The notes below the pieces were generated by a model. It had not been told where the DNA came from and ran no database searches. It saw only the letters and a program-made list of their open reading frames with translations. Source: Prauserella cavernicola (GTDB lineage: Bacteria; Actinomycetota; Actinomycetes; Mycobacteriales; Pseudonocardiaceae). Taken from it: 64,000 nucleotides of DNA. Positions within the stretch are counted from its first letter, which is position 1. Each line of letters opens with the position of its first letter. The stretch covers positions 124,001-188,000 of the forward strand of contig NZ_JAENJH010000011.1 of assembly GCF_016595675.1 (NCBI RefSeq), read 5' to 3'. Shown here in pieces: positions 41,592 through 46,293 of this stretch. The position numbers and the translations under genes are program-made.

Positions 41592-42518
41592 ATGCAGGAA
41601 ACGATCACCCCGTCGATCACGTTTGCCATGGTCAGGCACCATCAAGGCGTGGACATCGCGGCGTCGAAACGACGGATCGACCGGCTACCGGCCCCGATCT
41701 TGTTCGTTCTCAGCGGAATTTCCATGTACGTCGGCGCGGCGCTCGCGGTGTGGCTGTTTCCCGAGTCGTCACCGTCCGGAGTCGCGTGGTTGCGCTGTCT
41801 GGGTGCCGCGTTGATCCTGCTGGCGTGGCGTAGACCGGGTAGGGCCGCGTGGCGTGGTCGCCCATTGCTCCTCGCGGGTGCGTTCGGCGTGGTCACGGCC
41901 GGGATGAACGTGGTGTTCTACGAGGCGATCGCCCGGCTGCCGCTCGGCACGGTCGTCGCGCTGGAGTTCGTCGGCCCGGTCGTGGTCGCCGCGTTCGGCT
42001 CCCGGGGCCGCCGCGACATCGCGGCGCTGGTGTTCGTGGCGGCCGGGGTGCTGTGCATCGCCGACGTCCAGCTCAGGGGCAGTCCCGCCGGCGTGGCCTT
42101 CGCGCTGGCCGCCGCCGCGGCATGGGCGGGCTACATCCTGCTCGGCAAGAAGGTCGCGCTCGGTGGCAACGGCATCGACAGCCTCGCGGTGGGCTTCGCC
42201 GTGGCCACCGTGGTGCTCTCGCCGCTGGCGCTCGGCACGGGCGGCGTGTGGGGTCACCCGGACCTGCTGACGCTGGGCATCGGCGTGGGCCTGCTGTCCA
42301 CCGTGGTGCCCTACGTCCTCGACCAGGTGGTGCTGCGCCGCGTCGGGCAGGCCCGGTTCGCGGTGCTGCTGGCGCTGCTGCCCGTGACGGCGACGCTCAC
42401 CGGCATCGTGGTGCTGGGCCAGGTCCCGAGCCTGCTGGAGGCGCTGGGCATCCTCGCCGTGGTCGGCGGGGTGGCGCTGCGCTCGCGCGACGAGCCCGCG
42501 GTGCGTGAACCGCCGTAG
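41592..42518 (+). CDS. EamA/RhtA-type metabolite exporter
   Basis: 308 aa with ten predicted helices in two EamA repeats. Typical segments are ALAVWLFPESSPSGVAWLRCLGAALIL and GLLSTVVPYVLDQVVLRRVGQARFAVLLALLPVTATLTGIVVLGQ, the latter as in RhtA/YddG threonine-homoserine exporters. It likely exports amino acids or other small metabolites. The start is uncertain: ATG at 41592 or at 41628, or GTG at 41649. It lies 46 bp before the glutamine-synthetase-like gene in the same direction, so a functional link with that operon is possible. Confidence 0.8.
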   Translation: MQETITPSITFAMVRHHQGVDIAASKRRIDRLPAPILFVLSGISMYVGAALAVWLFPESSPSGVAWLRCLGAALILLAWRRPGRAAWRGRPLLLAGAFGVVTAGMNVVFYEAIARLPLGTVVALEFVGPVVVAAFGSRGRRDIAALVFVAAGVLCIADVQLRGSPAGVAFALAAAAAWAGYILLGKKVALGGNGIDSLAVGFAVATVVLSPLALGTGGVWGHPDLLTLGIGVGLLSTVVPYVLDQVVLRRVGQARFAVLLALLPVTATLTGIVVLGQVPSLLEALGILAVVGGVALRSRDEPAVREPP

Positions 42519-43921: not shown

Positions 43922-44722
43922 GTGTCCCTGCTCGACGAGGTGCACCCGCTGCCCGGTGCCGAGGAGATCCTCGCGAACGCGAGCGCCGAGCGTCCGCAGA
44001 AGGACGAGCTGTGCGGCGCCTTCGCCGGTCTGGTGGCGCTGCGGGCCCACGGCGTCGAGGTGAACGACCAGGACGAGGTGGCGCTCGCGGCGGGCACCGT
44101 GCTGGCCGAGGACGGCTCGGCGAGCCTGCCACCGGGGGAGAAGGGCCGCGCGGACTTCCGGCTGGCCCTGCCGGGCACGGCCGACGAGGAGCTGGCGGGC
44201 ACGTCCGCGATCGGCGTCGCGCGGGCGATCGAGACGCTCTCGGGCGGCACACTGTGCGCCGTGCCCGCGAGCGGGAACTGGACGGAGTCCTCGGTCCGTG
44301 CGTTGCTGGCGGGTGCGCGCGGCCTGCCGCTGGTCGCGCTGATCGCCAACGTCGACACGGGCTCGTTCGCCGCACCCGATACCCCGGAACGAGCCCTGCG
44401 TGACTACCTCGACACCGGAATCGTTCCACTGTGGACATCCCGCTGGCGGGTCGGCCACTTCGTGCTCGTCGCCGGTGCGCTGACGAGTGTCGAGGGAACG
44501 CTGGTGTCCGTTGTGGACACCTATGAGTCGCTGGGGTACAACGGTGTTCACCTGCAACCAGTCGGTCATCTGGCCGCCGCCCTGCGGCGCGACGGTGGCG
44601 CACCCGGTGGCGCGCTGCTGGTCGTCCCCCCGACCGCGGCGGAGGCGGCCGGTGCCGTGGTGGCGGACGCGGGACTGCGCGCCGAACTCTGGGACAACGG
44701 CAGCCCCGCCCCGCTGCGGTGA
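43922..44722 (+). CDS. Papain/C39-like cysteine-protein paired with the GS-like ligase (DUF6885-like)
   Basis: 266 aa, cytoplasmic (no signal or membrane segment). I do not know a proven function. The order of motifs follows papain-like C39 proteins: Q26-K-D-E-L-C31-G at the N-terminus, H179 in RVGHFVLVAG and D199 in VSVVDTYESLG, giving a possible Cys-His-Asp triad with Q26 as oxyanion helper. A second Cys (C112) lies in GGTLCAVPASGNW. A hydrolase or transferase acting on an amide, for instance a gamma-glutamyl product of the ligase 4 bp upstream, would fit. The match with DUF6885 is from memory. It ends on a strong hairpin. Confidence 0.6.
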   Translation: MSLLDEVHPLPGAEEILANASAERPQKDELCGAFAGLVALRAHGVEVNDQDEVALAAGTVLAEDGSASLPPGEKGRADFRLALPGTADEELAGTSAIGVARAIETLSGGTLCAVPASGNWTESSVRALLAGARGLPLVALIANVDTGSFAAPDTPERALRDYLDTGIVPLWTSRWRVGHFVLVAGALTSVEGTLVSVVDTYESLGYNGVHLQPVGHLAAALRRDGGAPGGALLVVPPTAAEAAGAVVADAGLRAELWDNGSPAPLR

Positions 44723-44781: not shown

Positions 44782-46245
44782 TCAGCTGAGCGGCTTCTCC
44801 TGCTCGCGCTCCTCGACCGCCAGCCGCGAGTGCTTGCGGCCGTAGACCAGGTAGATCACCAGGCCGAGCAGCAGCCACGCGCCGAACCGCAGCCACGTGA
44901 GCACGTCCAGGTTCAGCATCAGGTACAGGCACGCCAGCGCCGCGATGATCGGCAGCACCGGCGAGAACGGAACCCGGAACGGGCGCTTGAGGTCGGGCCT
45001 CGACCGGCGCAGCACCGGCACCGCGATCGCCACGATGATCATGGCGGACAGCGCGCCGATGCTGACCATGTCGGCGAGTTCGCTGATCGGCACGACCGCG
45101 GCGATCACCGCGATCAGCGCGGCGCCACCGATCGTCATGCGGTGCGGGGTGCCCCAGCGTGGGTGCACCCTGCCCAGAGCCTTCGGGAGCAGACCGTCCC
45201 GGCCCATCGCGAAGCCGATCCGGCCGATCGTGACGAGCTGCACCATCATCACCGACGTGAGTCCGGTGACCGCGCCCAGCGAGATCACCGCGCCGACCCA
45301 GTGCTGTCCCACCGAGTTGAACGCCGCCGCCAACGGTGCGCCCTCGTCGATGTCGGTGAACGGGATCATGCCGGTGAGCACGAGCGACACGGCGACGTAG
45401 AGCGCCGCGCACAACGCCAGCGCGCCGAGGATGCCGATCCGCAGGTCCCGGCCCGGGTTGCGCGTCTCCTCACCGAGGTTGGCCAGCGCCTCGAAACCGG
45501 TGTAGGCGAAGAACACCACGGCCGCCGCTGTGAGCATCCCGGCGAGGCCGTACACCGACTGTTCGAGGCCTAGTGCCGCCTGCACCACCGGCTGGTACAG
45601 CGTGCCGGTGTTGTCGTCGGTGGGCTGCGCCGGCGGGATGAAGGGTGTCAGGTTCGCGGCCTTGACGAAGAACGCGCCGACCACGACCACCAGCACGCAC
45701 ACGGCGACCTTGACGATGACGAGCGCGTTGGTGACCACGGAGGACTGCCGGATTCCGGCCACGGCGATCACCGTGAGCACCGCGATGATGAGCACCGCGC
45801 CGATGTTGACGACCGCTTCCTCGCCGAACAGCTCCGGCGGTAGCCCGAGCAGGTTCGCCAGATACCCGGACCAGCTTCTCGAGACCACGGCGGCGCCGAG
45901 CGCGAACTCGAGGAGCAGGTCCCACCCGATGATCCACGCGAAGACCTCGCCGAGCGTGGCGAAAGCATAGGTGTAGGCGCTGCCCGCGGTGGGCACGCTG
46001 GAGGCGAGCTCGGCGTAGCAGAGCGCGGCGAGCCCGGCGACCACGGCGCCGATCACGAAGGACAGGGTCACGGCGGGACCGGCGTGGTTCTTCGCCTCGA
46101 CCCCTGCGAGCGTGAAGATCCCTGTACCGATGATGATCCCGACACCGAAGCCCACGAGATCCCGGCTCTTCAGCCGCCGCTTCAGGTCGCCCGATTCCTG
46201 CCGTTGGAGAACGTCGTCGACGTTGAGCGTCCGGAAAATTCCCAC
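44782..46245 (-). CDS. APC-superfamily (cationic-type) amino-acid permease
   Basis: 487 aa with 12-14 helices. The N-terminus has KSRDLVGFGVGIIIGTGIFTLAG (substrate-binding GTGIF motif), then AELASSVPTAGSAYTYAFATLGEVFAWIIGWDLLLE and FFAYTGFEALANLGEETRNPGRDL, the pattern of CAT/YfnA-type transporters. It likely imports amino acids by proton symport. GTG at 46245 is preferred to an upstream TTG at 46272. It is convergent with the ligase/C39-like pair and follows a two-component system on the same strand (48 bp), so it may be under the control of that system. Confidence 0.85.
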   Translation of the reverse strand: MGIFRTLNVDDVLQRQESGDLKRRLKSRDLVGFGVGIIIGTGIFTLAGVEAKNHAGPAVTLSFVIGAVVAGLAALCYAELASSVPTAGSAYTYAFATLGEVFAWIIGWDLLLEFALGAAVVSRSWSGYLANLLGLPPELFGEEAVVNIGAVLIIAVLTVIAVAGIRQSSVVTNALVIVKVAVCVLVVVVGAFFVKAANLTPFIPPAQPTDDNTGTLYQPVVQAALGLEQSVYGLAGMLTAAAVVFFAYTGFEALANLGEETRNPGRDLRIGILGALALCAALYVAVSLVLTGMIPFTDIDEGAPLAAAFNSVGQHWVGAVISLGAVTGLTSVMMVQLVTIGRIGFAMGRDGLLPKALGRVHPRWGTPHRMTIGGAALIAVIAAVVPISELADMVSIGALSAMIIVAIAVPVLRRSRPDLKRPFRVPFSPVLPIIAALACLYLMLNLDVLTWLRFGAWLLLGLVIYLVYGRKHSRLAVEEREQEKPLS

Positions 46246-46293
46246 CCGCGACACGGTAATCCAGGTGAGCAACGCCCGCTGGGCAACGCGTGA

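Follow-up and report, generated by a model that had tools for sequence, protein, structure and literature searches.

DUF6885, a family encoded beside glutamine synthetase-like ligases in actinobacteria: a proposed papain-like γ-glutamyl-amide hydrolase

A glutamine synthetase-like ligase and its DUF6885 neighbour

In putrescine use, PuuD is the hydrolase that removes the γ-glutamyl group. More broadly, glutamine synthetase (GS)-like organic-amine ligases occur in many bacteria, and their described partner hydrolases have the class I amidotransferase fold. Such ligases have been named GoaS, and none is reported to convert ammonium in the excerpted text of PMC11335346; according to the same excerpts, AtdA2 hydrolyses the product of its GS-like ligase back, as does NpaA2 by the authors' inference. 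Key residues of Salmonella GS are D50, Y179 and E327, of which D50 and Y179 concern ammonium, and the equivalents are G40, A147 and W296 in PauA7 and G63, A169 and W327 in GlnA3 (excerpts of PMC6529630 and PMC5403932).

The window, that is, the whole 64,000-nucleotide stretch of Prauserella cavernicola analysed here, contains a ligase that resembles these enzymes, followed after 4 bases by a gene of family DUF6885 (Table 1). Aligned with 4hpp, which we take to be PA5508/PauA7, the ligase combines a GS catalytic domain with G50, A161 and F306 at the positions of Salmonella D50, Y179 and E327, the three replacements that mark GoaS sequences. In its replaced ammonium-site residues it is like the GoaS enzymes PauA7/PA5508, GlnA3, GlnA4 and NpaA1, the comparison having been made with PauA7 and GlnA3. 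The genome's own GlnA retains FDGSS, GGYFPVP and PGFEAP. Since the ammonium-site residues are replaced in the window ligase and retained in GlnA, the ligase should use an organic amine, and it is probably a γ-glutamyl-organic-amine ligase of the GoaS type. Against the NCBIfam model for γ-glutamylputrescine synthetase it scored 278.8, below the cut-off of 650. Across the DUF6885-linked ligases, wherever the alignment is legible, F or W replaces E327 and Asp is absent from the place of D50; the residue aligned with Y179 differs among them (A, G, S, M, H or Y).

Table 1 Features of the window and of related loci in other genomes
Feature	Location	Strand	Basis and remarks
EamA-family transporter	41592..42518	+	46 bases before ligase; best NCBIfam match is the RhtA threonine/homoserine exporter model, below cut-off
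GS-like ligase, 450 aa	42565..43917	+	Gln-synt_C 230.8 bits (ORF from 42505); closest solved structure 4hpp
DUF6885 protein gene, GTG start, 266 aa, stop	43922..44722	+	PF21819 match, homologue conservation, C39_2/BtrH_N profile similarity; product proposed to hydrolyse or transfer γ-glutamyl amides as a papain-like cysteine enzyme (Q26 as putative oxyanion Gln, C31 as putative nucleophile, with H179 and D199)
Hairpin, 22 pairs, 3-base loop	44719..44765	.	Fold z-score -9.7
APC-family amino-acid permease	44782..46272	-	AA_permease_2 187 bits; convergent with DUF6885 gene
Ligase pseudogene	L047:7341-8085		Frame change and ~220-codon deletion; before an intact C31-bearing DUF6885
Probable γ-glutamyl-amine breakdown cluster, G022	L053:1-16001		Contains DUF6885
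Distant ligase homologue, G410	L164:7495-11545		60% identity; near a GAF/PucR-type regulator
DUF6885 with Ala for C31, genus g251	L067:7805-8473		No adjacent ligase; apparent pseudoenzyme
DUF6885 with Ala for C31, genus g251	L069:8030-8695		No adjacent ligase; apparent pseudoenzyme
DUF6885 with Ala for C31, genus g251	L070:8014-8679		No adjacent ligase; apparent pseudoenzyme
DUF6885 with Ala for C31, genus g251	L071:8017-8682		No adjacent ligase; apparent pseudoenzyme
GNAT acetyltransferase-family gene	L067:7389-7805		In place of ligase
GNAT acetyltransferase-family gene	L071:7601-8017		In place of ligase

The protein encoded behind the ligase belongs to an already recorded Pfam family of unknown function, DUF6885 (PF21819): the match has an E value of 9.6e-99 (330 bits, cut-off 27) and covers profile positions 1–251 of 251. 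It was the sole Pfam match at E ≤ 1, with none to C39, C39_2, BtrH_N, GATase, Peptidase_C26 or PF05023; NCBIfam returned no model at that threshold and PHROGs no credible match. In seven relatives, Pfam at E ≤ 10 added only sub-cut-off matches (AlkZ-like, E 0.006, in L072; EccE, SoPB_HTH, 0.15), and 18 pattern matches in viral contigs included no relative. A text search of the literature for DUF6885 or PF21819 found no paper naming it. Pairwise dN/dS of the window gene against two congeners was 0.24–0.25, which marks the frame as a gene under selection. The protein contains 2 Cys, 5 His, 15 Asp and 3 Gln. Averaged over 19 residues, hydropathy peaks at 0.23 within the N-terminal 40 residues and, across the whole protein, at 1.88 from residue 180, in presumed core strands. 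Given this low N-terminal maximum, a signal peptide or N-terminal membrane segment is not evident, and one family covers all 266 residues, in agreement with the earlier observation that the protein has neither signal peptide nor transporter fusion; it is probably cytoplasmic.

DUF6885 is distributed sparsely, yet across several families of the phylum. Matches were found in 12 of 396 genomes sampled from the phylum (11 above the cut-off) and in 21 of 120 genomes of the window's own family, its own genome being included in both counts, and in 0 of 14 control genomes. Four further draws yielded 6/39 (order of G248), 1/27 (class of G022), 1/30 (order of G118) and 1/148 (order of G374), every one of them a genome already known from earlier draws. 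From the 32 genomes with a match we aligned 28 full-length copies. Contig ends truncate the copies of G208 and G259, that of G415 is reduced to decayed fragments and that of G028 scores below the cut-off, so these four were left out. The DUF6885 fragment of G208 faces its ligase, which is encoded convergently on the other strand, and beside the fragmented copy of G415 no ligase was found within the stretch.

Two transporter genes flank the pair in the window. The EamA protein, whose cluster occurs in 17 of the 31 stretches compared, is possibly the exporter of the ligase–DUF6885 unit. The permease cluster likewise occurs in 17/31 stretches, and the protein is possibly an importer, its membership of the system being uncertain. 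The hairpin between the two convergent genes starts at the DUF6885 stop codon and takes up much of the gap to the permease gene; a 14-base pattern from its arm has a single occurrence in the window, and it perhaps forms the end of both transcripts. A terminator scan that required a T run and a promoter scan returned nothing between 41300 and 44900, nor did Rfam between 38000 and 50000.

Probable relation of DUF6885 to papain-like proteins

The sequence-only reading likened the protein to papain and C39 on the strength of Q26, C31, H179 (in GHFVLV) and D199 (in VVDTY), and the translated ORF has all four residues at these positions, with Q26-x4-C31 literal. Across the 28 full-length homologues, Q26 and D199 are each conserved in 28/28, H179 in 26/28 and C31 in 20/28, giving a conserved Gln, Cys, His and Asp/Asn in the order expected of the papain-like superfamily. 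Invariance, which the sequence-only reading had proposed to check for C31, H179 and D199, was found for the last of these only. When the 20 C31-bearing homologues were aligned separately, a set in which C31 is invariant by selection, Q26, H179 and D199 were the sole invariant Gln, His and Asp; further invariant positions were N143, T146, W175, G178, F180 and Y201. By these alignment counts, the Q-C-H-D pattern exceeds chance.

We compared DUF6885 by hhalign with a papain profile built from 30 C39_2 sequences (30/30 loci) and 20 BtrH_N sequences (20/23 loci), revealing a similarity to accepted superfamily members that scored 27.9, with an E value of 1e-3 for this single comparison and a probability of only 22%. 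The alignment places Q26, C31, H179 and D199 on the Gln, Cys, His and Asp of the papain profile. This score was reached by none of 150 column shuffles (maximum, 20.5) and none of 150 block shuffles (maximum, 26.6); the best block shuffle nevertheless comes close to it, and the profile support for papain homology is weak. Taken alone, C39_2 scored 21.6, which no column or block shuffle reached (0/150 each; both maxima, 21.1), and BtrH_N scored 24.5, reached by 0/150 column and 3/150 block shuffles, with an alignment that covers the His-Asp half and leaves the Cys part unaligned. Sixteen control families from DUF6885 neighbourhoods reached no more than 20.3 when compared with DUF6885 and no more than 19.5 when compared with the papain profile. 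In the excerpted text of a 2023 survey (PMC10318531), the C39/BtrH branch shares a cluster with papain, and the string 'DUF68' is absent from its main text. On these comparisons, DUF6885 is probably a remote homologue of the C39/BtrH branch of the papain-like superfamily and a papain-like fold is fairly likely. The register and the conserved residue set support the earlier papain/C39-type assignment in part; in Pfam terms the protein is no C39 peptidase, having no C39 match at E ≤ 1.

Sequence searches of solved structures with DUF6885 gave chance matches only (best E 0.69 for the single sequence and 1.6 for the profile). An AlphaFold2 model of the window protein, made from an alignment of three sequences (the window protein and its close relatives L004 and L005, both Prauserella), had a pLDDT of 37.3. 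At this low confidence it shows a helix at 27–42, with C31 near its start, and strands at 180–183 and 193–195 near H179 and D199, a layout that would be expected of a papain fold but proves nothing. We consider it improbable that the protein has another fold altogether, with C, H and D conserved for a different reason. Such a reading would accommodate the lack of Pfam matches beyond DUF6885 at E ≤ 1 and of PDB sequence matches, the low-confidence model and the modest profile score, but the profile alignment falls in the catalytic register and exceeds both shuffles and controls.

Linkage with the ligase and copies lacking C31

Each of the 20 C31-bearing copies is accompanied by a same-strand GS-like match no more than 60 bases upstream or downstream of DUF6885 (by tblastn; in the window from its ORFs). 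The ligase is complete or cut solely by a contig end in 18 of these loci and decayed in two, as a pseudogene in L047 (Table 1) and a 57-aa remnant in L048. Paired ligases belong to different subgroups (~27–38% identical) and stand before, after or on both sides of DUF6885, which means that inheritance of a single intact operon does not by itself account for the pairing; because the species are related, these counts are not independent events. Ligases were counted by tblastn, and neighbouring genes were called with a simple codon-usage script that missed or split some of them. Close ligase homologues (E ≤ 1e-100) occurred in 24 of the 120 family genomes, 9 of which had no DUF6885 match; in ten ligase neighbourhoods, nine of them taken from these genomes and the tenth from G410, no credible DUF6885 was found (best E, 3.4). 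The pairing is thus one-sided: a C31-bearing DUF6885 stands beside a ligase, and the ligase can occur without DUF6885. The sequence-only reading, which described the protein as fixed behind its ligase, is therefore right in one direction alone.

The eight copies without C31 carry Ala (5), Ser (2) or Pro (1) in its place, come from three genera (g251, g262 and g241) and in 7/8 cases lack a segment at about 57–91. A ligase adjoins two of them (L068, L072) and is absent beside the other six. Genus g262 has both states, with C31 and a ligase in G421, Ser and a ligase in G459 and G507, and Pro without a ligase in G487. Among pairs within g251 and g262 (L066 left out), dN/dS of the C31-less copies was 0.19–0.41, and this purifying selection in two genera makes a non-catalytic role possible for the family. 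DUF6885 could by extension be a papain-fold protein that binds or regulates the ligase, its triad a relic, as the loss of C31 from 8/28 full-length copies under such selection might suggest. We regard this as very unlikely, given that the 20 C31-bearing copies, which represent several families of the phylum, all retain G178, H179 and F180 and that the six C31-less copies with no adjoining ligase can hardly regulate one there.

Within g251, copies with Ala for C31 (L067, L069, L070 and L071) have stayed intact in four congeneric species, at a dN/dS of 0.19–0.37, and appear from their sequences to be a pseudoenzyme under selection. In three of the four g251 genomes a GNAT acetyltransferase-family gene takes the ligase's position before DUF6885 (Pfam was run on two). 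G410 carries a Cys-less DUF6885 located away from its ligase. Near the distant ligase homologue of that genome lies a GAF/PucR-type regulator, as beside DUF6885 in L053.

Gene surroundings elsewhere in the phylum bear on what the pair may do. In G022 (L053), DUF6885 is surrounded by three GS-like genes, of which Pfam recognises two and tblastn the third, and by two class I amidotransferases, two class III aminotransferases, a permease, a GAF/PucR regulator and a gene of the formamidase family, a gene set that fits γ-glutamyl-amine breakdown and probably constitutes a cluster for it. In family f19, where the bearing genomes measure 2.9–4.4 Mb, DUF6885 occurs with one or two GS-like genes and an M20 peptidase, amidohydrolase or permease in varying combinations. 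Such neighbours could point to an amidase acting before the ligase, releasing from an amide or peptide taken up by the cell an amine (or ammonia) for γ-glutamylation: a permease lies in line upstream of DUF6885 in L048 and of the GS–DUF6885 pair in L052, M20 or amidohydrolase genes lie downstream in L051 and L048, and this order of events would also suit ligases that can occur without DUF6885 when every C31-bearing DUF6885 adjoins a ligase gene. It is nevertheless quite unlikely in our view, as the window ligase is without the ammonium-site residues and the known enzyme beside GS-like aromatic-amine ligases uses the γ-glutamyl product (PMC11335346, excerpts).

The same surroundings weigh on a rather unlikely alternative, in which a papain-like transferase would pass a γ-glutamyl (or aminoacyl) group from the ligase product to a second amine, in the manner of BtrH in butirosin synthesis, and EamA would export the resulting new metabolite. 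BtrH_N is a papain-like acyltransferase family (excerpts of PMC10318531) and outscored C39_2 against DUF6885; moreover, a ligase and a hydrolase alone would form a futile cycle unless the product were moved or changed, and the EamA gene adjoins the ligase. However, the six neighbours scanned include 0 acyl carrier or biosynthetic genes, the gene surroundings in other genomes have a catabolic look (aminotransferases, amidotransferases, M20 peptidase, amidohydrolase, permeases), and block shuffles matched the BtrH_N score in 3/150 cases, with the Cys part unaligned. The more specific proposal that a papain-fold γ-glutamyl transferase uses the ligase's amide as donor for a new exported metabolite, the Cys-less copy being non-catalytic in some lineages, is unlikely.

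We also looked at amidotransferases in the window's own genome. Peptidase_C26 had five matches above its low cut-off, the best at 40 bits, and the match located on contig C6, close to a GS gene, shares 36% identity with one of the amidotransferases in the G022 cluster. As a second amine-ligase cluster this locus was rejected: its GS is a true GlnA with the three motifs given above, beside a gene for a 990-aa protein that by eye resembles glnE. With a class I amidotransferase thus present elsewhere in the genome, beside glnA/glnE, a conventional hydrolase is possible.

Proposed function and comparison with known systems

We favour the reading of DUF6885 as a papain-like cysteine γ-glutamyl-amide hydrolase that acts on the product of the neighbouring ligase, and give it about an even chance of being correct. 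It fits the place of the hydrolase because of the linkage with the ligase and the Cys-His-Asp set. The ligase would use ATP to couple glutamate to an amine, giving a γ-glutamyl amide, whose carbonyl would be attacked by C31 at the start of the core helix; H179 and D199 would complete the triad and Q26 would support the oxyanion. A γ-glutamyl thioester would form on DUF6885, and transfer of the group to water would release glutamate and the amine, or a processed form of it. DUF6885 would thereby fill a PuuD/AtdA2-type role beside the ligase with an unrelated fold. The data show the family, the pairing of the genes, the conservation of the residues and, from its residues, the type of ligase; fold, catalysis and the bond cleaved are what we infer here, and several of the results count against them: the pLDDT of the model (37.3) and the profile probability (22%), the decayed ligases in L047 and L048, the 9/24 ligase genomes without DUF6885, the Y179 position that is not uniformly replaced in linked ligases, the C31-less copies under selection and the class I amidotransferase elsewhere in the genome. 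For an intracellular amide hydrolase or transpeptidase of this kind set behind a ligase, the sequence-only reading knew of no function; a kind of function is on record for such a pair, since differently folded hydrolases of γ-glutamyl amides operate together with GS-like amine ligases (PMC11335346, excerpts).

Literature searches on papain-like or cysteine peptidases in connection with GS-like ligases or γ-glutamyl chemistry found no mention of a DUF6885–ligase pair, which is therefore new as far as the literature was searched. The idea of a ligase with a papain-like partner may not be new in kind; a 2009 amidoligase paper by Iyer and colleagues, cited in the 2023 survey, might describe neighbourhoods of this sort.

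Among papain-like families, DUF6885 shares with C39_2 (PF13529) and BtrH_N (PF14399) the C...H...D order, a GH strand followed by D and profile similarity, and with C39_2 also the Gln before the Cys. It differs from both in its longer Cys-His spacing, in the 67 residues that follow D199 and in having no transporter fusion and no evident signal peptide. Peptidase C39, the bacteriocin leader peptidase, is further removed, as DUF6885 has no C39 match at E ≤ 1 and no fused ABC transporter, one family spanning the protein. Phytochelatin synthase (PF05023) is papain-like and acts on glutathione, a γ-glutamyl peptide (excerpts of PMC10318531), but DUF6885 has no PF05023 match at E ≤ 1; comparison sequences for this enzyme numbered 0 in 296 genomes of the phylum, with controls equally silent.

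The closest functional parallel is with PuuD, AtdA2 and NpaA2, of the class I glutamine amidotransferase fold, whose role as cysteine hydrolases accompanying a GS-like amine ligase is the one proposed for DUF6885 (for AtdA2 and NpaA2, PMC11335346, excerpts). In sequence it is unrelated to them, with no GATase or Peptidase_C26 match at E ≤ 1. If the favoured reading is true, this step would have been solved twice by unrelated proteins, the second time by a papain-like one, and DUF6885 would gain its first testable function, with the C31-less copies as a natural comparison; which amine this conserved actinobacterial gene pair handles would then become a tractable question.
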